Assembly (NCBI RefSeq): GCF_000321225.1
Contig: NW_004450565.1
Location: forward strand, 1,898,611 to 1,962,610
Origin: Odobenus rosmarus divergens
Lineage: Eukaryota > Chordata > Mammalia > Carnivora > Odobenidae
DNA length: 64,000 nt
Direction of reading: 5' to 3'
Shown here piece by piece: positions 5,290 through 64,000 of this stretch (positions are counted from its first letter, which is position 1; each line of letters opens with the position of its first letter). The notes beneath the pieces are model-generated. The model searched no databases. It was not told the DNA's origin and saw nothing but the letters and a program-made list of their open reading frames with translations. The translations under genes were made by a program, and so were the position numbers.

Positions 5290-5292
5290 GCC

Positions 5293-5628
5293 ACTGGAGA
5301 AGCTGCTGGCCCTGGAGAAGTTGCTGGCCCTGGAGAAGCTGCAGGCCCTGGAGAAGCTGCAGGCCCTGGAGAAGCTGTAGACCCTGGAGAAGCTGCTGGC
5401 CCTGGAGAAGCTGCAGGCCCTGGAGAAGCTGCTGGCCCTGGAGAAGCTGCAGGCCCTGGAGAAGCTGCTGGCCCTGGAGAAGCTGCAGGCCCTGGAGAAG
5501 CTGTAGGCCCTGGAGAAGCTGCAGACCCTGGAGAAGCTGCTGGCCCTGGAGAAGCTGCAGGCCCTGGAGAAGCTGCAGGCCCTGGAGAAGCTGCTGGCCC
5601 TGGAGAAGCTGCAGGCCCTGGAGAAGCT
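5293..5628. repeat. 18-bp minisatellite, about 18 copies
   Basis: The unit is GGAGAAGCTGCAGGCCCT, with a main variant having CTGCTG in place of CTGCAG and a rarer one having TAGACC. Copies are head to tail and nearly identical. Because 18 is six codons, frames stay open through the array: plus-strand frames read as (ALEKLQ)n, (GPGEAA)n and an Arg/Trp-rich version, and the minus strand reads (ASPGPA)n. At least one plus frame is closed by the TAG variants. The frames run only a little beyond the array, so they are repeat products and not evidence of a protein. Confidence 0.95.
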
Positions 5629-5799
5629 AACACCTCTCACCCTTTCCCTGTCTACCCTAGGAGACCAAGGCCTCTCCAGCTATGACTCCTTGAATCGTAA
5701 GAAGAAAATCATCCCATGTACTAACCGTCTGGGAAAATCAGGACCATTTTGTACAGAGTCAAGTGCAAGAGGAGAAACCCAACGAAGAAGCCCGGTTTC

Positions 5800-8547: not shown

Positions 8548-8572
8548 TTTTTTTGAAGATTTATTTATTTAG
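8548..8572 (-). repeat. Tail end of an older antisense CAN-SINE, split by a younger one
   Basis: The run of T followed by 'gaagatttatttattta' is the reverse complement of a CAN-SINE A-rich tail. The same element resumes at about 8,764, after the plus-strand SINE. The shared 'aagattatttattt'-like sequence on both sides is consistent with a target-site duplication of the inserted SINE. Confidence 0.7.
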
Positions 8573-8763
8573 GGGCGCCTGGGTGGCTCAGTCGTTAAGC
8601 ATCTGCCTTCGGCTCAGGTCATGATCCCGGGGTCCTGGGATCGAGCCCCACATCGGGCTCCCTGCTCGGTGGGAAGCCTGCTTCTCCCTCTCCCACTCCC
8701 CCTGCTTGTGTTCCCTCTCTTGCTGTCTCTCTCTCTCTGACAAATAAATAAATAATCTTTTTT
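8573..8763 (+). repeat. CAN-SINE, young copy, nested
   Basis: This is a near-consensus carnivore SINE. It starts GGGGCGCCTGGGTGGCTCAG, has the A and B box region ('ggctcaggtcatgatcccggggtcctgggatcgagcccc'), a CT-rich tract at about 8,684-8,738, then AAATAAATAAATAATC and a T/A-rich tail. It serves as the internal reference that shows what was lost in the damaged SINE at 59,193-59,376. Confidence 0.97.
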
Positions 8764-8980
8764 TTAAAAAAAGATTATTTATTTGAGAGAGAGAGAAAGA
8801 AAGAGAGCGAGCACTCACTCGCTCAGGGAGGAGGGGTCGAGGGAGAGAGAGAGAATCCCAAGCAGACTTCATGCTGGGTGCAAGCCTGACGTGGCGCTTG
8901 ATCTCACGACCCTGAGCTCATGACCTGAGCCCAAACCAAGAATCAGCTGCCTAACCGACGAAGCCGCCCAGGCACCCCCA
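8764..8980 (-). repeat. CAN-SINE, antisense, older copy
   Basis: On the plus strand it reads 'aaaaagattatttatttgagagagagag', then a GA-rich tract, 'catgctgggtgcaagcctgacgtggc', 'gatctcacgaccctgagctcatgacctgagcc', and ends 'gccgcccaggcacccc', the reverse complement of the SINE start. Together with the plus-strand copy it forms an inverted pair. Confidence 0.92.
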
Positions 8981-15599: not shown

Positions 15600-16640
15600 G
15601 ACAATGACTTTGTACATTCAGGTGTGGACTTCTGGTCTTGGTGAAGGAGCGGGGAGCCCGGTGCATGTCCAGGCCTCATGGCAGTGGGGGTACAAGCAGC
15701 TACAACTCTGATGGGGACTCCATCCTTCTGAACAGAGGAAGCAGGAAAGGGGTCCTGCTGGGAGAAATCCAGGACAGAGAAGAGCTGGAGAAGACAACCC
15801 TACACAGCCCAGCAAAGGCCCCAAGAGCTGAACTGAGGCAGAAAACGCGGCCCACAGCGGGTGACACAGAACTGTGGTCTGGGCGCAGCTGGACCCATCA
15901 CTTGCAGCTGTAAAATAAAAAAAGAAAGTCAACATTTTCCAGGGGATTTTTAACAAGACCCAGAGCCTACACAACATAATATTGAAAATATTCACGACAG
16001 TCCAAGGAATCCAAAATTACTTGACATACAAGGAGCCACAAAAATGCTCAAGAGAATGACAATCCACAGCCCCCCTGTCCCCCAACATGACCCCAATGCT
16101 GGAATCATCTGATAAAGATTCTGACATACCTGTTATAAATGTGCTCCATGTGGTAAAGGGAAATACACTTGAAGTGAATGGAAAGATAGAAATTCTCTGT
16201 AGAGAAATAGAAACTACAAAAAAAAAAAAAACAACTCAATAGAAACTTTGGAACTGAAAGATAAAATCCCTGAAATTAAAAAAAAAAATCATTAGGTGGG
16301 CTTAGTAGCAGGACAGCAGTGGCAGGAAAGGGGACTGAACTTACAGAGAGATCCATAGAAAATTTCCAACCTATGCAACAGAGGAAAATTCAGCCTGAAA
16401 AAGAAAATGAACAGAAGCTTAGGGACTCATGGCACGGTAGCAAGAGGTCCACCATTCATGCCACAAGAGTCGCGGAGTAGAGGAGGGAAAACAATGGTGC
16501 GGGAAAATAGTTGAAGTGATAATAGCAGAAAATGTCCCAAACTGGGGGAAGGACAAATTTAACAAGCTCAGCAAATCCCAAACAGGCTAAACTGAAAGAA
16601 AATGATGCCCAGCCACATTGCAAACAATCTGCCAAGCAAC
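15600..16640 (+). repeat. LINE-1 5'/ORF1-type fragment
   Basis: From about 15,985 the sequence follows the ORF1 region of old mammalian L1: 'aatccaaaattacttgacatacaaggagcc', 'gctggaatcatctgataaagattctgacatacctgttataaatgtgctc', 'aaatacacttgaagtgaatggaaagatagaaattctc', 'agaaatagaaactac' and 'agcagaaaatgtcccaaactg'. Frameshifts and A-runs (16,217-16,231 and 16,278-16,288) break the frame, so no functional ORF1 remains. The part before 15,900 is assigned only by position. Confidence 0.7.
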
Positions 16641-50235: not shown

Positions 50236-51740
50236 GCACGACAGACACCCCCCCACGCGCACGCCCGCTCACACACGACAGACACCCCCCCACACGCCCG
50301 CTCACACACGACAGACACCCCCCCACACACACACNNNNNNNNNNNNNNNNNNNNNNNNNNNNNNNNNNNNNNNNNNNNNNNNNNNNNNNNNNNNNNNNNN
50401 NNNNNNNNNNNNNNNNNNNNNNNNNNNNNNNNNNNNNNNNNNNNNNNNNNNNNNNNNNNNNNNNNNNNNNNNNNNNNNNNNNNNNNNNNNNNNNNNNNNN
50501 NNNNNNNNNNNNNNNNNNNNNNNNNNNNNNNNNNNNNNNNNNNNNNNNNNNNNNNNNNNNNNNNNNNNNNNNNNNNNNNNNNNNNNNNNNNNNNNNNNNN
50601 NNNNNNNNNNNNNNNNNNNNNNNNNNNNNNNNNNNNNNNNNNNNNNNNNNNNNNNNNNNNNNNNNNNNNNNNNNNNNNNNNNNNNNNNNNNNNNNNNNNN
50701 NNNNNNNNNNNNNNNNNNNNNNNNNNNNNNNNNNNNNNNNNNNNNNNNNNNNNNNNNNNNNNNNNNNNNNNNNNNNNNNNNNNNNNNNNNNNNNNNNNNN
50801 NNNNNNNNNNNNNNNNNNNNNNNNNNNNNNNNNNNNNNNNNNNNNNNNNNNNNNNNNNNNNNNNNNNNNNNNNNNNNNNNNNNNNNNNNNNNNNNNNNNN
50901 NNNNNNNNNNNNNNNNNNNNNNNNNNNNNNNNNNNNNNNNNNNNNNNNNNNNNNNNNNNNNNNNNNNNNNNNNNNNNNNNNNNNNNNNNNNNNNNNNNNN
51001 NNNNNNNNNNNNNNNNNNNNNNNNNNNNNNNNNNNNNNNNNNNNNNNNNNNNNNNNNNNNNNNNNNNNNNNNNNNNNNNNNNNNNNNNNNNNNNNNNNNN
51101 NNNNNNNNNNNNNNNNNNNNNNNNNNNNNNNNNNNNNNNNNNNNNNNNNNNNNNNNNNNNNNNNNNNNNNNNNNNNNNNNNNNNNNNNNNNNNNNNNNNN
51201 NNNNNNNNNNNNNNNNNNNNNNNNNNNNNNNNNNNNNNNNNNNNNNNNNNNNNNNNAAAAAAAAAAAAAAAAACACGCCCGCTTACACACGACAAAAAAA
51301 AAAAAAAAAAACGCCCGCTCACACACCCCCAAAAAAAAAAAAAAAAACACGCTCACACACGACACCCAAAAAAAAAAAAAAAAACGCTCACACACGAGAC
51401 ACCCAAAAAAAAAAAAAAAAATCACACGCGACAGACACCCCAAAAAAAAAAAAAAAAACACACGCGACAGACACCCCCAAAAAAAAAAAAAAAAACTCTC
51501 ACACGACAGACACCCAAAAAAAAAAAAAAAAAGCTCACGACACCCCCCCACAAAAAAAAAAAAAAAAAAGCTCACACACGACAGACACCAAAAAAAAAAA
51601 AAAAAAGCTCACACACGCACGCCCGCAAAAAAAAAAAAAAAAACTCACACACGCACGCCCGCTAAAAAAAAAAAAAAAAACGCACGCACGCCCGCTCACA
51701 AAAAAAAAAAAAAAAAAGACAGACACCCCCCCACACGAAA
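50236..51740. repeat. Minisatellite (units of 37 and 33 bp seen) flanking the second gap
   Basis: Before the gap the unit ACAGACACCCCCCC followed by ACGCGCACGCCCGCTCACACACG starts at 50,241, 50,278 and 50,311, giving one 37-bp and one 33-bp unit. After the gap, the surviving 20-base windows up to about 51,740 (CACGCCCGCTTACACACGAC, GACAGACACCCCCCCACACG and others) belong to the same array. The post-gap part is overlaid by the A-block pattern described separately. Confidence 0.88.
50335..51256. other. Assembly gap (922 N)
   Basis: There are 922 consecutive N within the minisatellite. The A-block lattice starts on the very next base, 51,257, so this gap marks a contig boundary between normal and damaged sequence. 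Confidence 1.
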
Positions 51741-54700
51741 AAAAAAAAAAAAAAGCAAGATCTGCACCCATATCCACGCACTGACGCCAGGGACGCCATT
51801 ACAAAGGCTTGAAAAAAAAAAAAAAAAAAGTCCAGCACCACGTGTTTGAAAAAAAAAAAAAAAAAGTGGGAAGGTCCCGTGGCGGTGTGTATGTGGGAGG
51901 GAGGGAGGCGGCACGGGGCAGCTCAGCAGCAGGATCAGGTGCCACGGGAAAGTGGCAGCAAAAAAAAAAAAAAAAAGCATCCCTGGCCATCCAGGAAAAA
52001 AAAAAAAAAAAAAGAGGGTAAAGCCCAGAGCACAAAAAAAAAAAAAAAAAAGGGCCTCCACCACCACCCTAAAAAAAAAAAAAAAAACTCACTCCCTGGG
52101 AGCCTGGAAAAAAAAAAAAAAAAAACGGCACAGAAGCAAGGAGAAAAAAAAAAAAAAAAAAGGCGGGGGAGGGGGGCCCAGAAAAAAAAAAAAAAAAATT
52201 CCACCCAAGGGCAAACCTAAAAAAAAAAAAAAAAAGGAGGGGCTCCACCAGAGGCAAAAAAAAAAAAAAAAAGCTTGTCAAAGGCACCGTCTAAAAAAAA
52301 AAAAAAAAATGAGGAGAGAACCCCGGGGTAAAAAAAAAAAAAAAAACAGGCTGCTGTCCTGGTGGGAAAAAAAAAAAAAAAAAGCAGAAGGCCCCACCAG
52401 CCCAAAAAAAAAAAAAAAAACAAACAGAAAGCACCTCTGAAAAAAAAAAAAAAAAAACACCATATGTACCCCTGCCCAAAAAAAAAAAAAAAAAGGTACA
52501 CGTAGGCAAGAACCAAAAAAAAAAAAAAAAAACAGCCTCCTACTCTCATAGAAAAAAAAAAAAAAAAAAAATGCTACCGTGCCGCTCTAAAAAAAAAAAA
52601 AAAAAGAGGCGGGCGGGGAAACACTAAAAAAAAAAAAAAAAAGCAACATGCCGAGTACGACAAAAAAAAAAAAAAAAAATGCGATATGTTTATAAAGATT
52701 GCCATGAAAACGGTTCACCTCAAAAAAGCAGCTTCGATGCTTAAGAGGTGAGTTTCCGGTCTTGGGAAAATGCAAAAAAAAAAAAAAAAATTTGCCAACG
52801 GGATAGCCTTAAAAAAAAAAAAAAAAAGTGGTACTTTCCAAGCTGCCAAAAAAAAAAAAAAAAACCCCGTGGGCACCTAAAGACAAAAAAAAAAAAAAAA
52901 AGCACCGGCCCTTCTGCACGGAAAAAAAAAAAAAAAAACCCCCACCGCCCTGCCCAGTAAAAAAAAAAAAAAAAAAAGCCTGGCCTCTGGGAGCCAAAAA
53001 AAAAAAAAAAAACAGGCAGGAATGTCTGTCACAAAAAAAAAAAAAAAAATCAGCTCTAGGGGATCTCAAAAAAAAAAAAAAAAAAAGAAATACTCCATTT
53101 TCCCAGGCAAAGGTAAGACAGATGGCAGTGACCCCAGAACAATAAAAAAAAAAAAAAAAAAGGAAATAATTTTGTAAACTAAAAAAAAAAAAAAAAACAG
53201 AATCTTTTAAAAATCAAAAAAAAAAAAAAAAAAAATGAATCTAGGTCTCTCCCTAAAAAAAAAAAAAAAAATACCATGTGATTGGGCAGCCAAAAAAAAA
53301 AAAAAAAAATCCACATGTACCATCCAAAAAAAAAAAAAAAAAAAAGGCAGAAGGTGCCGCTGGTGAAAAAAAAAAAAAAAAATCTACTCCCCACCTCCCT
53401 CCAAAAAAAAAAAAAAAAACTAGTGGTGTCCAGAGCATGAAAAAAAAAAAAAAAAAGAAGGATGGAAACCACCGGTAAAAAAAAAAAAAAAAACCCAAGA
53501 GCAGGACCAGGCCAAAAAAAAAAAAAAAAATGAGCACAGATGAGGATGGAAAAAAAAAAAAAAAAAAGAGGTGATGTCAGGCTGTGAAAAAAAAAAAAAA
53601 AAAAAGGCAAGCAGCTCAACGGCCAAAAAAAAAAAAAAAAATGCAGACAGCGAGTGTGAGCACCAAGCTGGAGCAACGTGGACACAAGCCCTGACTGCAA
53701 AAAAAAAAAAAAAAACAGGGCCAGCGTGCATGTGGAAAAAAAAAAAAAAAAACAGAAATCATGGTACTATCAAAAAAAAAAAAAAAAAATCATCACGGGC
53801 CTGGCCCTAAAAAAAAAAAAAAAAAACCCACACCCAGGGCAAGGAGAAAAAAAAAAAAAAAAAGTGGGCTCCCCACAGATGCCAAAAAAAAAAAAAAAAA
53901 GGACACGCAGGTGCTTCCATAAAAAAAAAAAAAAAAAAGCTTACCGATTGGCTAAGCAAAAAAAAAAAAAAAAATCACTAAGAATCTCTGACCGAGGTCT
54001 GCAGGCCGGGAGAGAGAGCAGACCTGGGACAGCTGAGGGGCTGACGGTGCAGGTGACTGACAGCAGGGAAAAAAAAAAAAAAAAACTCCTCCTCCCCACG
54101 GGGACAAAAAAAAAAAAAAAAACCCATGCTCTGCACGACACAAAAAAAAAAAAAAAAAACGGGGGCAGGGTTGTGGGAGAAAAAAAAAAAAAAAAAGGAA
54201 GGCCTGTGTCTCACCAAAAAAAAAAAAAAAAAACTCCAGAGGCTTACAGTGGTAGGGCTGGCAGGCGACCCCCAGGCTCAAGTCAGAGAGAAAAAAAAAA
54301 AAAAAAAGCCAAAAACTACATCTATTTAAAAAAAAAAAAAAAAAAAAAATCAGGTATTGCTCCTAAAAAAAAAAAAAAAAAAACACGCCACCACACAGAG
54401 CAAAAAAAAAAAAAAAAACCACGCTTGTGCCCACACACTCCCTGCCATCTTCAAACTCACCCCAAACAAGTGCTCAAAAAAAAAAAAAAAAACGCTTCCT
54501 GCTCCCTGGACTAAAAAAAAAAAAAAAAAAGAGTAACTGTTTGCATAAAAAAAAAAAAAAAAAAAACCTGAGCTACAAATATGCTTAAAAAAAAAAAAAA
54601 AAATAAACTATATGACCGAGAGTAAAAAAAAAAAAAAAAAAGTCTTTTGGGCTAGTATGTAAAAAAAAAAAAAAAAATGCATTCTTGGTGGGAAACTAAA

Positions 54701-54857
54701 AAAAAAAAAAAAAACAACTGGAATGACTTAAAATAAAAAAAAAAAAAAAAACTCATGAAAAACACCAAAGAAAAAAAAAAAAAAAAAAGTATAATATACA
54801 TGAATCTTAAAAAAAAAAAAAAAAATACTTGTAATATTTCCAAATAAAAAAAAAAAA
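51741..54857. other. Damaged sequence with no recognised repeat; weak exon candidate inside
   Basis: Unreplaced patches are 51,755-51,811, 51,866-51,959, 52,680-52,773, 53,087-53,143, 53,642-53,698, 53,975-54,068, 54,234-54,290 and 54,419-54,475. Most are GC-rich and resemble the sequence left of the gap. No gene can be called through the damage, apart from the weak exon candidate listed at 52,680. Confidence 0.5.
52680..52744 (+). other. Possible exon end with splice donor
   Basis: In an unreplaced patch the sequence runs '...cagcttcgatgcttaagag' and then GTGAGTTTCCGG from about 52,746, a good donor (AG|GTGAGT). One frame is open through it (ending ...KKAASMLKR). The upstream boundary is lost in the A-blocks, and a chance donor is quite possible. 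Confidence 0.25.
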
Positions 54858-55694
54858 AAAAAACAAATGGTTGGGAAAACTGAAAAAAAAAAAAAAAAAG
54901 CATGAATTTGGACCCTTACCTCACACCATATCCTAATGCATCGACCTAAACTGCAAAGAGAAAACAATAAAACTCTTAGAACAAAACATAGGGAAAAAAA
55001 AAAAAAAAAACAAATTTGGCAATTATTTCTAAAAAAAAAAAAAAAAACACATGCAACAAAAGAAAAAAAAAAAAAAAAAAAAAACAAATTTAACTCTTCT
55101 ACATAAAAAAAAAAAAAAAAAAGAGTGAAAAGACAACCTACAAAAAAAAAAAAAAAAATGCAAGTCACCTGATAAGGGAAAAAAAAAAAAAAAAAATAAA
55201 GAGCTCCTGGAACTCAAAAAAAAAAAAAAAAAAACCCAATTCGAAAATAGATAAAAAAAAAAAAAAAAAATTTCTCCAAAGGAGATATGAAAAAAAAAAA
55301 AAAAAAATGACAAGATGCTCAACATCAAAAAAAAAAAAAAAAATGAGATACCACCTCACACCCAAAAAGAGAACTCCAATAAAAACAAAGAGAAAATAAG
55401 CAGTGTTGGCGGGGACATGGAGAAACAGGAATCCTTGAAAAAAAAAAAAAAAAAGAACGTAAAATTGTGCAGCTAAAAAAAAAAAAAAAAATGTCAGTTC
55501 CTCCAACAAGTAAAAAAAAAAAAAAAAATGTGATACAGCAATTTCACAAAAAAAAAAAAAAAAAACAGTCGTGAAAGCAGGGATGAAAAAAAAAAAAAAA
55601 AAACCAGTATTCGCTACAGCATAAAAAAAAAAAAAAAAAGGTGGAAACAGCCCAAGTGTAAAAAAAAAAAAAAAAAGATAAACAAAATATGGCA
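54858..55694 (+). repeat. LINE-1 ORF2 3' part (left half, interrupted by Tigger1)
   Basis: The surviving windows fall in L1 order: 'aaacaaatggttgggaaaact', 'gcatgaatttggacccttacctcacaccatatcc', 'actcttagaacaaaacatagg', 'tttggcaattatttct', 'acatgcaacaaaag', 'gagtgaaaagacaaccta', 'cctgataaggg', 'aacccaattcgaaaatag', 'atttctccaaaggagatatga', 'tgacaagatgctcaacatc', 'tgagataccacctcacaccc', 'agcagtgttggcggggacatgg', 'atttcaca' and 'ggtggaaacagcccaagtgt'. In each tested junction the L1 consensus supplies about 17 bases for each A-block. The element is 5'-truncated and coding capacity is lost. Confidence 0.9.
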
Positions 55695-57987
55695 CAAAAA
55701 AAAAAAAAAAAAATGCACTTTGCTTCACAGATAAAAAAAAAAAAAAAAAATTTTAAACAAATTGAACGTTTATGGCCTCCACCAAGTCTATCGGCACTGT
55801 ATTTCCAACAGCAATTTGCTCATTTCATGTCCCTGTGTCACATTAAAAAAAAAAAAAAAAAATTCCACACTTTTTCATTCTAAAAAAAAAAAAAAAAATG
55901 ATCTGTGACCAGTGAGCCTTGATGTTACTTCTGCAGCTATTTGGGGTGCCCTGACAAAAAAAAAAAAAAAAAACAAACTTAACTGATAAGTGAAAAAAAA
56001 AAAAAAAAACTCCACCGACTGGCTGTTCCAAAAAAAAAAAAAAAAACCCCAGGCCTCCCTGTTCCCAAAAAAAAAAAAAAAAAATTAGACCCATTAATAA
56101 TCCAAAAAAAAAAAAAAAAAGTTCACATGAAAGGAAGAGTAAAAAAAAAAAAAAAAAGAATCAAAAGCTAGAAATGAAAAAAAAAAAAAAAAAAGGCATG
56201 TCAAAAGCTGAGATAAAAAAAAAAAAAAAAATCCTTTTTGCACCAAACAGCAAAAAAAAAAAAAAAAAGAAAAAGTTCTTGAAGGAAAAAAAAAAAAAAA
56301 AAAAAGTGAACACACAAATGATAAGAAAAAAAAAAAAAAAAATTGCTGATGTGGAGAAAGTTAAAAAAAAAAAAAAAAAAGGCCAAACCAGCCCCAACAA
56401 AAAAAAAAAAAAAAAACTCCTCCAGAGCAAGGTCCTAAAAAAAAAAAAAAAAATGAAGGCTGAGAGGTGAGGAAAAAAAAAAAAAAAAAATCATGAGGTT
56501 TAAGGAGAGAAAAAAAAAAAAAAAAAATTAAAGTGCCAGGTGAGGTTAAAAAAAAAAAAAAAAAAGCTGCAGCAAGTTCTCCAGAAAAAAAAAAAAAAAA
56601 AATCTAGGAAGGCGTCTCCACAAAAAAAAAAAAAAAAAGTAAAATCTTGCAGAGGAAGAAAAAAAAAAAAAAAAATTTCATAGCTGGAGAGGAAAAAAAA
56701 AAAAAAAAAAAAAAAGCTTCAAAGGACAGGCTAAAAAAAAAAAAAAAAACGAAAGGTGAATTTCATTGGCACCCAACACTCACTGACCATTCCGAAAATC
56801 CTAGGGAAAAAAAAAAAAAAAAATACTAACTCTACTCTGCCCAAAAAAAAAAAAAAAAAAAGCAAAGGCTGGATGGCAGTAAAAAAAAAAAAAAAAAGGC
56901 TTACTGAATGTAGTTAAAAAAAAAAAAAAAAAAATCTGCTCAGAAAAAAAGATTAAAAAAAAAAAAAAAAAGCTCACTGAAAGTGCCCCTGAAAAAAAAA
57001 AAAAAAAACTGGAGATGGACAATGAGAAAAAAAAAAAAAAAAAAATGCCATCACAAAATCCATTCAAAAAAAAAAAAAAAAAAGGAGTCATTTCAACTTT
57101 CCAAAAAAAAAAAAAAAAAAATTCACTTCATAAGGCATAAAAAAAAAAAAAAAAAATTTCTCTGATGGATCTGGGCAAAAAAAAAAAAAAAAATCTGGGA
57201 AGGATTCCTGTTCAAAAAAAAAAAAAAAAAATTTGTGATTCATGGGGAGAAAAAAAAAAAAAAAAAAGAACAGGAGTTTGGAAGAAGAAAAAAAAAAAAA
57301 AAAAGGAGGACTTTGGGGGTTCAAAAAAAAAAAAAAAAAAATCACTGCAGATGTGGTGGAAAAAAAAAAAAAAAAAAAATTAGAAGTGGGGCCTGAAGAA
57401 AAAAAAAAAAAAAAACAATCTCAGGGTCAAACTTGAAAAAAAAAAAAAAAAATTCTCATGGATGAGCAAAGAAAAAAAAAAAAAAAAAAGGATCCACTCC
57501 TGGTGAAGAAAAAAAAAAAAAAAAAAGAATGACAACAAAGGATTTGAAAAAAAAAAAAAAAAAAGTTGATACAGCAGCAGCAGAAAAAAAAAAAAAAAAA
57601 TGTGGGTCAAATGCTATCAAAAAAAAAAAAAAAAAAAAGAGAAATCGCTCATGAAAGAAAAAAAAAAAAAAAAAGGCAAGCGTCATTATTGTTTTATTCT
57701 AAGAGGTTGCCGTGGCCGCCCCAGCCTTCAGCGGCCACCACCCCAAACAGTCAGCAGCCGTCAACATCGAGGGGAGACCTTCCACCAGCAAAAAGATCAC
57801 AACTCAAAAAAAAAAAAAAAAATGGTTAGCATTTTCTAGCAAAAAAAAAAAAAAAAAAAAAGGCATATACATTGTGTTTAAAAAAAAAAAAAAAAAGAAA
57901 CCAGAACAGTAGACTCACTTCATTGCCATATCTGCTTTGTTGTGGGGTATCTGGAACTGAACCTGCAATCTCTCTGAGGTGTGCCTG
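55695..57987 (+). mobile_element. Tigger1 DNA transposon (pogo-like, Tc1/mariner superfamily), nearly full length, inactive
   Basis: Surviving windows follow Tigger1 from end to end. The left part is 'tgcactttgcttcacagat' and 'acaaattgaacgtttatggcc...aagtctatcggcactg'. The transposase region (about 56,120-57,440) includes 'aggcatgtcaaaagctgagat', 'tccgaaaatcctaggg', 'ctctgatggatctgggc', 'ttgtgattcatgggg' and 'aggagtttggaagaag'. The 3' part is 'gtcagcagccgtcaacatcgag', and the right end is 'ctctctgaggtgtgcctg'. Length is about 2.29 kb against about 2.4 kb for the consensus. The right end is followed by TA (57,988-57,989), the expected target; the left flank reads CA, a mutated TA. Tigger1 encodes a DDE transposase with an N-terminal helix-turn-helix DNA-binding part. 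Substitutions and the A-blocks prevent judging its frame, but copies of this age are dead. Confidence 0.92.
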
Positions 57988-58340
57988 TATAAAAAAAAAA
58001 AAAAAAATTATTTAGCCATAAAAAGGAAAAAAAAAAAAAAAAAATACAACATGGCTGAACCTTGAAAAAAAAAAAAAAAAAGAAATAAGCTGGACCCGGA
58101 AAAAAAAAAAAAAAAAAATTCCACTTATAGGAGGGTACAAAAAAAAAAAAAAAAAATAGGCAGAAGTAGAATGAAAAAAAAAAAAAAAAAAAAAGAGGGC
58201 AGCGGGGGAATGAAAAAAAAAAAAAAAAAGGGTACAGAGTTTCTCTTTGGTATGATAGAAAGTTCTGGACATAGACAGTGGTGATGAAAAAAAAAAAAAA
58301 AAAATGTACTTAATGCCACTGAAAAAAAAAAAAAAAAAAA
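57988..58340 (+). repeat. LINE-1 3' end (right half, resumes after Tigger1)
   Basis: After the Tigger1 end the L1 resumes where it stopped: 'ttatttagccataaaaagg', 'tacaacatggctgaaccttgaa', 'gaaataagctggaccc', 'ttccacttatag', 'taggcagaagtagaatg', 'gggtacagagtttctctttggtatgatagaaagttctgg', 'tagacagtggtgatg' and 'aatgccactga'. The join across the insertion keeps L1 order, and exactly 17 L1 bases fit in the A-block at 57,991-58,007. Confidence 0.88.
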
Positions 58341-59192
58341 CTCTGGAGACAATTCTAAATGTGCACATCTCAGAGCAGAGGGACAGCCGTGAGCACGAAA
58401 AAAAAAAAAAAAAAAGATGCAGGCGTACCAGCTGAAAAAAAAAAAAAAAAACTGCGTCTGGCCTGGAAAAGTATCAAAGAGCTTCTGCTGGGTTCGTCAC
58501 TCTGCCTTAAAAAAAAAAAAAAAAAGGGGTGCGGTACCCTATACTAAAAAAAAAAAAAAAAAGGACCTGCCCTCAAGGCCCTAAAAAAAAAAAAAAAAAG
58601 CATCCACATCACAGGAGAAAAAAAAAAAAAAAAAAACTTCAAGTCTTCTCAGGAAAAAAAAAAAAAAAAAAAAGTATTTATATCAACCTTTTCAAAAAAA
58701 AAAAAAAAAATGACAGCAGAGCTCATGGCAAAAAAAAAAAAAAAAAAACAACAGGCATATTTACGACAAAAAAAAAAAAAAAAATTCTGTCCCTGGTCTG
58801 ACAGCCAGCCTTGTGCTGGTTTCAAGCCCCAGACCTGCGATAAAAAAAAAAAAAAAAACATTAATTTTAAAATCCTCTAAAAAAAAAAAAAAAAATGGGG
58901 CTACATATATATCCGAAAAAAAAAAAAAAAAACCCCACTCAGCACCATGTGCAAAAAAAAAAAAAAAAAGCCATCCTCAAAGCCGCAGCAAAAAAAAAAA
59001 AAAAAACGAGGGTCTCCCAGCTCTGTAAAAAAAAAAAAAAAAATGAGCACCCTTGGGGGCAGGAAAAAAAAAAAAAAAAACTGGCGGCTGGCCTGGCAGG
59101 CTCCATGCCTTTACAGACAAACTGACAGCACCAAGGAGAAATAAAGAGTGCCTCAACTTAACATAAGAGGAATTCTTTAAAAAACAAATTTA
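58341..59192. other. Damaged unassigned sequence
   Basis: Visible patches include 58,341-58,397, 58,452-58,508 and the unbroken 59,081-59,192, which contains 'ggagaaataaagagtgcc' (an AATAAA near 59,140). No repeat or gene is recognised. Confidence 0.4.
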
Positions 59193-59376
59193 GGGGCGCC
59201 TGGGTGGCTCAGTCGTTAAGCATCTGCCTTCGGCTCAGGTCATGATCCAAAAAAAAAAAAAAAAAGCCCCGCATCGGGCTCCCTGAAAAAAAAAAAAAAA
59301 AATTCTCCCTCTCCCTCTTGTGAAAAAAAAAAAAAAAAATCTCTCTGTCAAATAAATAAAAAAAAAAAAAAAAAAA
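59193..59376 (+). repeat. CAN-SINE, damaged by A-blocks
   Basis: The head GGGGCGCCTGGGTGGCTCAG and on to CATGATCC is intact (59,193-59,248). Then A17, 'gccccgcatcgggctccctg', A17, 'ttctccctctccctcttgtg', A17, 'tctctctgtcaaataaataa', A17. The intact copy at 8,573 has 17 bases (CGGGGTCCTGGGATCGA) at the first block and 17 (CTCGGTGGGAAGCCTGC) at the second. Flanks 'aaacaaattta' and 'aaataaattta' look like a target-site duplication. Confidence 0.97.
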
Positions 59377-59397
59377 AAATAAATTTAAAAATACATA

Positions 59398-62300
59398 AAA
59401 AAAAAAAAAAAAATTGTTTCTGATTTTAAATTCACAAGAGACCCCAAACACTGCCAAGCACATGCTTTTATTCATACTTTGTTAGAACTCATGTGTCTCC
59501 TTGACCTAAAAAAAAAAAAAAAAAATATTAGAAAGGCTAAGCCAAAAAAAAAAAAAAAAAATAAGTACTTTTCCTATGATAAAAAAAAAAAAAAAAAATT
59601 TATCATGTGTTTCTCCCTAAAAAAAAAAAAAAAAAGGACTCTTGCGATCCCTATAAAAAAAAAAAAAAAAAAGAAATAAAGTATCTTTCTTCAAAAAAAA
59701 AAAAAAAAAATTAGCTAAACTACACAAAAAAAAAAAAAAAAAAAAATTCCGTGTCTCTCTACGCTGAAAAAAAAAAAAAAAAAAGGAAAAGACCCTGCAT
59801 TCTAAAAAAAAAAAAAAAAAATTACACTAGTTTATCTCCCAAAAAAAAAAAAAAAAAATACCCAAAAAGAAAATACCAAAAAAAAAAAAAAAAAAACACA
59901 CAACACCCTCAATTAAAAAAAAAAAAAAAAAGACCTACAGAACCGCAGCACAAAAAAAAAAAAAAAAATGCACCATGAATTGCAAGCTAAAAAAAAAAAA
60001 AAAAATCTGGCTCTGATGAGCGGGCAAAAAAAAAAAAAAAAATGGCTCCTGAGATTCAGCCCAAAAAAAAAAAAAAAAATCGTGGCTTCAGCCTCAGCCA
60101 AAAAAAAAAAAAAAAATATAAAATCGACTTCAGAGAAAAAAAAAAAAAAAAAAACATGCCCCACAGCAGACACAAAAAAAAAAAAAAAAAGAGGCCACCA
60201 CCGTCAGGGGCCGTCAGCACCTTCCTTCACTGGAGAGGGTGCCCAGAGCCCGAGGAGCCGCAGCGTCACCATGAGGGAAGCAGCAAAAAAAAAAAAAAAA
60301 AGTGCTCCCTCATGCGACTTCAAAAAAAAAAAAAAAAAGAACTTCTGGCTCTCACGTGAAAAAAAAAAAAAAAAAAGGAAGTGTGTCCTTCCGTGAAAAA
60401 AAAAAAAAAAAAAGGCGCAGCTGAGAAGGATCAAAAAAAAAAAAAAAAACTGGGACACACCGGCAGACGAAAAAAAAAAAAAAAAACCCAATGGCACGGG
60501 CTCTCCAAAAAAAAAAAAAAAAAATGATATTTCTTATAAGAAAAAAAAAAAAAAAAAAAATATAGTCAAGTGCCCAGAACAAAAAAAAAAAAAAAAATTC
60601 TACCCACCAAGTATCTGAAAAAAAAAAAAAAAAATCCTAATACCAAGTTTATAAAAAAAAAAAAAAAAAAAGTTGTGCACATCAATAACTCAAAAAAAAA
60701 AAAAAAAACAAAAATAAAACAGGCACAAAAAAAAAAAAAAAAAAAGTCCAACGTCACCTGAAATAAAAAAAAAAAAAAAAAATTTAAAGGTAAACTTGAA
60801 TTAAAAAAAAAAAAAAAAAATTACTAGAGAGAGAATGAAAAAAAAAAAAAAAAAAATATCTCAGGAAAATGCTGACCAACGGGGCAGGTGGTTATTTCAT
60901 CCCCTTTGTGCAGGCAAACCCACAGGTCTCGAAAGTCTACTGAGCAGCAGAAAAAAAAAAAAAAAAACCCTCTTCCAGGTACAGGACAAAAAAAAAAAAA
61001 AAAAGATGGATTCTTCCTCAGGCTAAAAAAAAAAAAAAAAAACCAGCCACCCACAGGTACTAAAAAAAAAAAAAAAAAGTTGTGTGGATACATATGCAAA
61101 AAAAAAAAAAAAAAATCACTCACATTCTACCATCTAAAAAAAAAAAAAAAAAGTGATGGTTTCAGAACACAAAAAAAAAAAAAAAAAAAGGGGAAGGGAC
61201 ACACCGAGCAAAAAAAAAAAAAAAAATCCAGGGCGCGGAGGTCCTCCAGGAGCTCCTGGGCCACGGTCTGCAGGTGCGGGTTGAAAAAAAAAAAAAAAAA
61301 CAGGATGCGCTGCCGGGGCAAAAAAAAAAAAAAAAAAGAGGCCGACCTGGAGAAGACAAAAAAAAAAAAAAAAACAGACTGGACGAGTCGCAGTGCATGA
61401 AGACACACCTCTGCATCCGGGTCTGGGGGAGAAAAAAAAAAAAAAAAATTAGAACGAGACTCTACAGAAAAAAAAAAAAAAAAAATCCCTCAAGAGCTCT
61501 CGGCCAAAAAAAAAAAAAAAAATGACCGTTCAGTAACTGCCAAAAAAAAAAAAAAAAAAGTCACTTCTTGAGGCAAAAGAAAAAAAAAAAAAAAAAACAC
61601 AACAAACCTCAATGACAAAAAAAAAAAAAAAAACCATCTTCAAATATTACTCAAAAAAAAAAAAAAAAAATGCTGAACAAAAAATATGAGAAAAAAAAAA
61701 AAAAAAATTGCTCCAACTCTGTCCACAAAAAAAAAAAAAAAAAAGTATTACTCCATTTGTACTCCAAGTGCGTCAATCCCTCAGAGGACACATACAGGTA
61801 TAAAAAAAAAAAAAAAAACCCAGGCTCCCCAGAGTCATAAAAAAAAAAAAAAAAAGTGTTACCATGTCCCTGAGGAAAAAAAAAAAAAAAAACAGAACCT
61901 GGTACCCTGCACAAAAAAAAAAAAAAAAAAAACACAGCTAGACGCAAACAAAAAAAAAAAAAAAAACATTCTTAACTAGGAGGGATAAAAAAAAAAAAAA
62001 AAATTACTCTTCCCTACTGGGAAAAAAAAAAAAAAAAAAAATCCACTTCTTGATTGAATGAAAAAAAAAAAAAAAAACTCAAAATCAGTACCTCTTTAAA
62101 AAAAAAAAAAAAAAACCTTTTAAGAAGTGAGTACAAAAAAAAAAAAAAAAAAAGTAAGTCCTCAGTGAGAAAAAAAAAAAAAAAAAAATGCCCAGAGGCT
62201 CCTGCTGTTGACCCAGGGCCCCCAGGGCCCAGTGAAGACTGCTGTAAAAAAAAAAAAAAAAAGGGCAGGACATCCTGAGCCTAAAAAAAAAAAAAAAAAC

Positions 62301-62798
62301 TACTTTGGGGGAGGAGGGGAAAAAAAAAAAAAAAAAGGGCCTGCCAAAGACCTGGTAAAAAAAAAAAAAAAAACCGGGAGGAGGACAGGGTCGCCGGGAA
62401 GGCCCCACCACCCAGACAAAGATGGACAGGAGCTGAACCAAACACCAGAGAACTCCCTTTGTCCTCCAGCATCAGCCCAGCATACTTCCAGCAGCCAATA
62501 AGAGAAAAAAAAAAAAAAAAAAGGAGCAAAAGGAAGGAAGGAAAAAAAAAAAAAAAAAACGCAAAGGGAAGGCCAACAAAAAAAAAAAAAAAAAAGCACT
62601 GAGGAAGACACTCGGAAAAAAAAAAAAAAAAACTCACTTAGCGCAAGGAAAAAAAAAAAAAAAAAAAAATAATGGTACACAGAAGGCAAAAAAAAAAAAA
62701 AAAAAACCCACACCCATCTCATCCCGCACTGACAGCCCAGCAGAAGAGGAGGCATGGCCATGTCCACAAGTACACACCAGTTACCTCATTCTCTGCTG
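59398..62798. other. Damaged sequence, mostly unassigned
   Basis: Unreplaced patches include 59,414-59,507, 60,191-60,284, 60,857-60,950, 61,227-61,283, 61,375-61,431, 61,745-61,801, 62,189-62,245 and 62,374-62,504. Some parts are AT-rich and some (61.2-61.4 kb) GC-rich. One weak exon candidate is listed separately. Confidence 0.45.
61190..61431 (-). other. Possible protein-coding exon, minus strand
   Basis: Because A-blocks replace bases without shifting coordinates, one minus frame can be followed through them. The visible parts read PDPDAEVCLHALRLVQS, then VFSRSAS, then PRQRIL, then NPHLQTVAQELLEDLRALD, then CSVCPF, with no stop in the real windows. The fourth piece has the look of an amphipathic helix, as in HEAT/ARM-type proteins. 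I do not recognise the protein. GC-rich chance openness is the alternative, and exon borders are hidden. Confidence 0.3.
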
Positions 62799-63012
62799 CA
62801 GAGGCTGGTACACTATGGCCCAGAGACCAAATGCAGCCCAGGAAACATTTCTGTACAGGCTGTAAGCCAAGAGTGATTTTTATATTTTAAAGGGATAGTT
62901 TTTAAAAAAGAGAGAAGGGGGAGAAGAATATGCAGCAGAAACCATATATGGCCCGGCCCTAAAAATATTTACTATCCAGCCCATTACAGAAAAAGTTTGC
63001 TCTATTGCCCTG
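62799..63012. mobile_element. hAT-type (Charlie group) non-autonomous DNA element
   Basis: It begins CAGAGGCTGGTACACTATGG and ends 'ttacagaaaaagtttgctctattgccctg', degenerate versions of the CAGGGGTCGGCAAACT terminal inverted repeats. Inside are 'gaccaaatgcagcccagg', 'ctgtacaggctgtaagcc', 'gaatatgcagcagaaaccatatatggccc' and 'aaaatatttactatccagccc'. It is about 214 bp, with no coding capacity. No clean 8-bp target duplication is visible. It lies in the longest unreplaced patch of the lattice, and the subfamily name is not certain. Confidence 0.75.
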
Positions 63013-64000
63013 CACACGATGTAAAAAAAAAAAAAAAAAATTATGACAAAGCCAGGGAAAAAAAAAAAAAAAAAAAGAGTGATAAAGTAACCAACAAAAA
63101 AAAAAAAAAAAAAGACCCAGCTACAGGAACAACAAAAAAAAAAAAAAAAACTAAATAGGATGAAGAGATGAAAAAAAAAAAAAAAAAGGTTCCTACAGTA
63201 CATCTGAAAAAAAAAAAAAAAAAATAAACATTAATTAAAGGCTGAAAAAAAAAAAAAAAAACAAATCATAAAAAAGTTTTTAAAAAAAAAAAAAAAAACT
63301 AACAGTATCAATAAAACAAAAAAAAAAAAAAAAAAAACAACAAACAAAAAAAGAGAAAAAAAAAAAAAAAAATATTTTTGTATTTCTTTCTAAAAAAAAA
63401 AAAAAAAAACAGTATAACCACACTGATTAAAAAAAAAAAAAAAAAAAAAACAGCAAGACTTCACTAAAAAAAAAAAAAAAAAAATCCAAGATAAAGACAA
63501 AGGAAAAAAAAAAAAAAAAATATGCCAAACAAACACTAGTAAAAAAAAAAAAAAAAAGCCTATATTATTACCAAACAAAAAAAAAAAAAAAAAAAGAAGT
63601 GTTACCAGGACTACAAAAAAAAAAAAAAAAACGACAGAGAGGTCAACATGGCAAGAAGACAGAACAGTCTCAATTACGTATGTCCTGAATAACAGAGCTT
63701 CAAAAGACCAAAGCAAAATATGATAGAATTCCACGGGCAAATCGATTCACAATTAGAGTTGAAAACTTTAATGTTATTTCCATTCCTGATTTTAAAAAGA
63801 AAAAAAAAAAAAAAAATAAAAACACAGAACCCATGAAAAAAAAAAAAAAAAAATAGCAAGGTCAGCATACAATAAAAAAAAAAAAAAAAATTTCAGTGAG
63901 GATACATTGGAAAAAAAAAAAAAAAAATGTAAGATTGTTGAATCACAAAAAAAAAAAAAAAAAACAAATAATACATTATATGTTAAAAAAAAAAAAAAAA
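63013..64000. other. Damaged AT-rich sequence
   Basis: These are A-rich, T-poor 20-base windows between A-blocks, with one larger clean patch at 63,632-63,799 ('gacagagaggtcaacatggcaagaagacagaacag...tttaatgttatttcc'). The clean patch looks like L1 ORF2-type sequence but is too short to call. No gene is seen. The pattern runs off the window end in mid-block. Confidence 0.4.

Follow-up and report, generated by a model that had tools for sequence, protein, structure and literature searches.

What could place runs of 17 adenines at a spacing of exactly 37 bases across 12.7 kb of otherwise unrelated sequence, as found in the genome assembly of Odobenus rosmarus divergens? The region occupies the end of the window, the 64,000 nt stretch of DNA analysed here (GCF_000321225.1, NW_004450565.1:1,898,611-1,962,610, forward strand). 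The original prediction was that it represents a data fault in one contig, which is supported both by the replacement of 17-base stretches within an exon of HSF2BP and within a SINE, and by the start of the lattice at the contig's first base. We put the probability that a single contig of the assembly suffered a data-processing fault at around 97%; the lattice is a data error, not a biological feature.

The lattice consists of A17 blocks, each followed by 20 ordinary bases (Table 1). A scan of positions confirmed that the blocks start at 51,257 + 37k without slipping as far as the end of the window, which truncates the last block (k = 344, at 63,985) to 16 A. Similarly, when the positions of A-runs of at least 17 were taken modulo 37 within the window, all 287 were found to contain a full lattice block, in a single phase. 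The earlier description of the lattice as perfect is accurate with respect to phase, but not to occupancy, which is only 83%: it omitted the 57 of the 344 complete units in which the block is not all-A. No A-run of 17 or more occurs before 51,257 in the 64-kb window, and only two runs of 10-16 are present there (14 at 16,218 and 11 at 16,278). The pattern of three consecutive blocks with non-A edges has 42 matches in the window, compared with none in 100 dinucleotide-preserving shuffles, and the period-37 composition score of the lattice contig is z = 305.6, whereas no such signal was detected in the window's other two contigs (z = -1.0 and 1.7).

As expected of an artefact, the pattern follows units of data, namely a contig edge and a fixed phase, rather than units of biology. 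The units of a tandem repeat would be alike over their whole period; here, except in the minisatellite at the start, inspection showed the 20-base pieces to be unrelated ordinary sequence, and in register they read as a gene (HSF2BP) and a SINE. The two bases that immediately follow an A-block (phases 17 and 18) are slightly enriched in T, and slightly depleted in A or C, relative to the remainder of the 20-base pieces; T occurs there in 77 and 78 of 287 cases, compared with a mean of 21.6%, a difference that is borderline and uncorrected for 20 positions. Elsewhere in the window, a tandem array of a short unit, roughly CTGGAGAAGCTGCAGGCC, was observed by eye at about 5290-5630.

Phase 0 of the lattice coincides with the first base of its contig, an agreement expected by chance in 1 of 37 cases. 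The gap immediately upstream was probably caused by a GC-rich minisatellite that flanks it on both sides, closing the previous contig and recurring at 51257-51757. That the repeat is alike on the two sides makes it plausible that these contigs are correctly ordered and oriented.

Table 1. Coordinates of the lattice and of associated features within the window.
Feature	Position	Strand	Description
Lattice	51257..64000	+	Period of 37: A17, then 20 ordinary bases; of 344 complete units, 287 are overwritten and 57 spared
Assembly gap	50335..51256	.	922 N; directly precedes lattice; phase 0 is first base after gap
Minisatellite at end of previous contig	50238..50334	+	Similar repeat opens lattice contig
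Intact SINE copy outside lattice	8567..8771	+	Yardstick; 61 bases identical to 59188-59248
SINE copy inside lattice	59188..59379	+	Blocks at 59249 and 59286 each equal exactly 17 bases of intact copy
Part of HSF2BP exon	61226..61405	-	C-terminal region of protein; frame kept across three A-blocks
Longest spared run	62727..63022	+	Eight consecutive units (k = 310-317) of ordinary sequence

The blocks take the place of real bases and leave length unchanged, as an artefact would. That 17 bases are replaced in each case, as originally claimed, is borne out by three blocks in the exon and two clean blocks in the SINE. The exon belongs to the gene for heat shock factor 2-binding protein (HSF2BP), located at 21q22.3 in humans, and contains A-blocks at 61284-61300, 61321-61337 and 61358-61374. 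The 60 residues read from this part of the exon on the minus strand align without gaps to human-type HSF2BP, at residues 152-211 of Protein Data Bank entry 7bdx_A and residues 191-250 of 7ldg_A, with an E value of 1.6e-16 when the blocks are represented by X (the final residue of this masked query having been entered by hand) and 4.6e-14 with the actual letters, the blocks being read as phenylalanine. The lattice exon encodes the C-terminal region of the same protein as these entries, but differs from them in that three 17-base stretches are overwritten and translated as phenylalanine runs. Since both frame and length are kept, each of these blocks stands for exactly 17 bases; when the blocks were deleted, inspection of the translations found the matching pieces split among frames, none of the three reading through the whole. 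A Pfam search with the exon peptide returned no family.

The alignment of the SINE copy inside the lattice to the intact copy scores 200 with the blocks treated as N, but 122 either with the blocks deleted or with the letters unchanged. The SINE is of a type that points to a carnivore genome. Only the first two blocks are counted as clean, because a 4-base gap adjoins the third and gaps of 8 and 1 bases fall within the 20-mer before it. Replacement had been said to be evident from three independent repeats; this holds for the SINE, which was tested formally, but the minisatellite gave no clean answer. When neighbouring 20-mer pairs were sought in the previous contig, allowing up to 4 mismatches each, 12 pairs were found, spaced by 14, 16, 15, 16, 14, 15, 11, 17, 3, 36 and 3 bases in the minisatellite and by 17 in the single SINE pair. 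With spacings ranging from 3 to 36, and the value 17 occurring just twice overall (once for the SINE), the minisatellite was dropped as evidence for 17-base replacement, being unsuited to judging register because the repeat itself varies in length. Judged against the Tigger1 consensus, a block near 57,800 likewise appears to replace 17 bases. As the blocks substitute and add no bases, coordinates, reading frames and repeats all stay in register.

The 57 spared units are each spared whole, and form runs of 1, 2, 3, 4 and 8 units on 15, 10, 2, 2 and 1 occasions, respectively. They are clustered, with 27 adjacent pairs compared with a mean of 9.2 and a maximum of 20 in 20,000 shuffles, and comparison of a two-state chain with independence gives a likelihood ratio of 37.7 (transition counts 256/30/30/27). 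Within the 57 spared blocks, A-prefixes and A-suffixes extend to at most 5 bases, hence no half-overwritten block is evident. Sparing was predicted neither by the flanking bases at 40 positions (smallest raw p 0.029, non-significant after 40 tests) nor by the GC (p 0.21) or CpG (p 0.76) content of the following 20-mer, and a tally by eye of unit index modulo 2 to 11 revealed nothing clear. These units, the clustering of which is first recorded here, offer the strongest pointer to whichever program introduced the error.

In favour of a data-processing fault, then, are the strict phase from the contig start, the all-or-none overwriting by unit, the substitution of bases and the absence of the pattern from the window's other two contigs; against it stand the clustered sparing of 57 of 344 units, which a simple fault does not explain, and the fact that 37 bases in a two-bit code correspond to a non-integer number of bytes. 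Such a fault would involve a program that took the contig 37 bases at a time, beginning with its first base, and that for the majority of units lost the leading 17 bases and output A instead, while the trailing 20 were kept. The unit may have been a 37-base record, of which the 20 kept bases would make up 40 bits, or 5 bytes, or else a 17-mer visited at a stride of 37. Because, counted from the contig edge, each unit begins with its block, processing probably ran in the orientation given here, with A itself as the filler, probably as the zero value of a two-bit code. Zero-filling of two-bit memory, the cause originally suggested, is unproven: A as the filler agrees with a code in which A = 0, but the 74-bit period and the 57 untouched units fit poorly. 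Block edges do not fall at multiples of 4 bases, as neither 37 nor 17 is such a multiple. Since 74 bits are not whole bytes, a fault per record or per 17-mer fits better than plain zero-filled memory; this period and the untouched units together suggest a fault acting on logical 37-base units, not memory words.

Several routes to this outcome can be distinguished. It is quite possible, if short of even odds, that a masking step, whether deliberate or accidental, overwrote with A those 17-mers at stride 37 that failed some test, with 57 passing. Overwriting is all-or-none for each 17-mer and the spared units cluster, as a regionally dependent test would give, and such a test explains the clustering more easily than does truncation of records; nevertheless, the flanking positions and the GC and CpG content of the following 20-mer do not separate spared from overwritten units, and that we know of no program masking 17-mers at stride 37 also counts against this proposal. 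Copy number alone does not appear to have been the test: the SINE contains a spared 17-mer followed by two overwritten blocks, and its intact copy suggests that a common repeat 17-mer was among those overwritten. Rather more doubtful is the truncation of consecutive 37-base records, each stored in a 40-bit field whose highest place was taken by the first base, such that the leading 17 were zeroed and printed as A. The 20 kept bases are exactly 40 bits, it is the leading bases that are lost, and a common two-bit code assigns zero to A, but the spared units are left unexplained. It is unlikely, if compatible with everything in the window, that the fault was planted as a test or arose after deposition, when the sequence was copied, served or prepared. 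The phase starts at the contig edge, and stops there on the left, which points to per-contig handling; splitting at N runs would do likewise. That the A-blocks are real DNA, formed as a tandem array or by repeated poly-A insertion, is vanishingly improbable: the letters are indeed present in the sequence, but they replace bases within a coding exon and a SINE, and hold phase without slip over 12.7 kb of unrelated sequence from a contig edge.

Assemblers and converters are known to generate artefacts in which unknown bases come out as whichever letter a two-bit code assigns to zero. A data-processing fault of the kind favoured here resembles these in having a fixed letter in place of real bases, but differs in the strict 17/20 lattice with whole units spared, for which a literature search, judged by titles, found no describing paper. 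The triple-block pattern, at period 37 and at looser spacings, was absent from viral_contigs and genome_contigs; as these consist of viral and prokaryote sequence, and may exclude the window's own genome, this says little about other animal assemblies. There is a speculative case for a recurrent bug, as yet undescribed, by which an assembly or conversion program would silently overwrite, at record level, 17 of every 37 bases while keeping length and frame; it would also affect other contigs, and perhaps other assemblies, and would pass checks because nothing shifts.

The lattice is a warning about data quality rather than a discovery. Within its complete units, 4,879 of 12,728 bases are not data. 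Because the overwriting does not alter length, gene models remain in frame, and stretches of phenylalanine or lysine would enter them with no frameshift to raise the alarm; likewise, sequence models, or surveys of poly-A, low complexity or repeats, would pick up a spurious pattern if trained on a contig like this.
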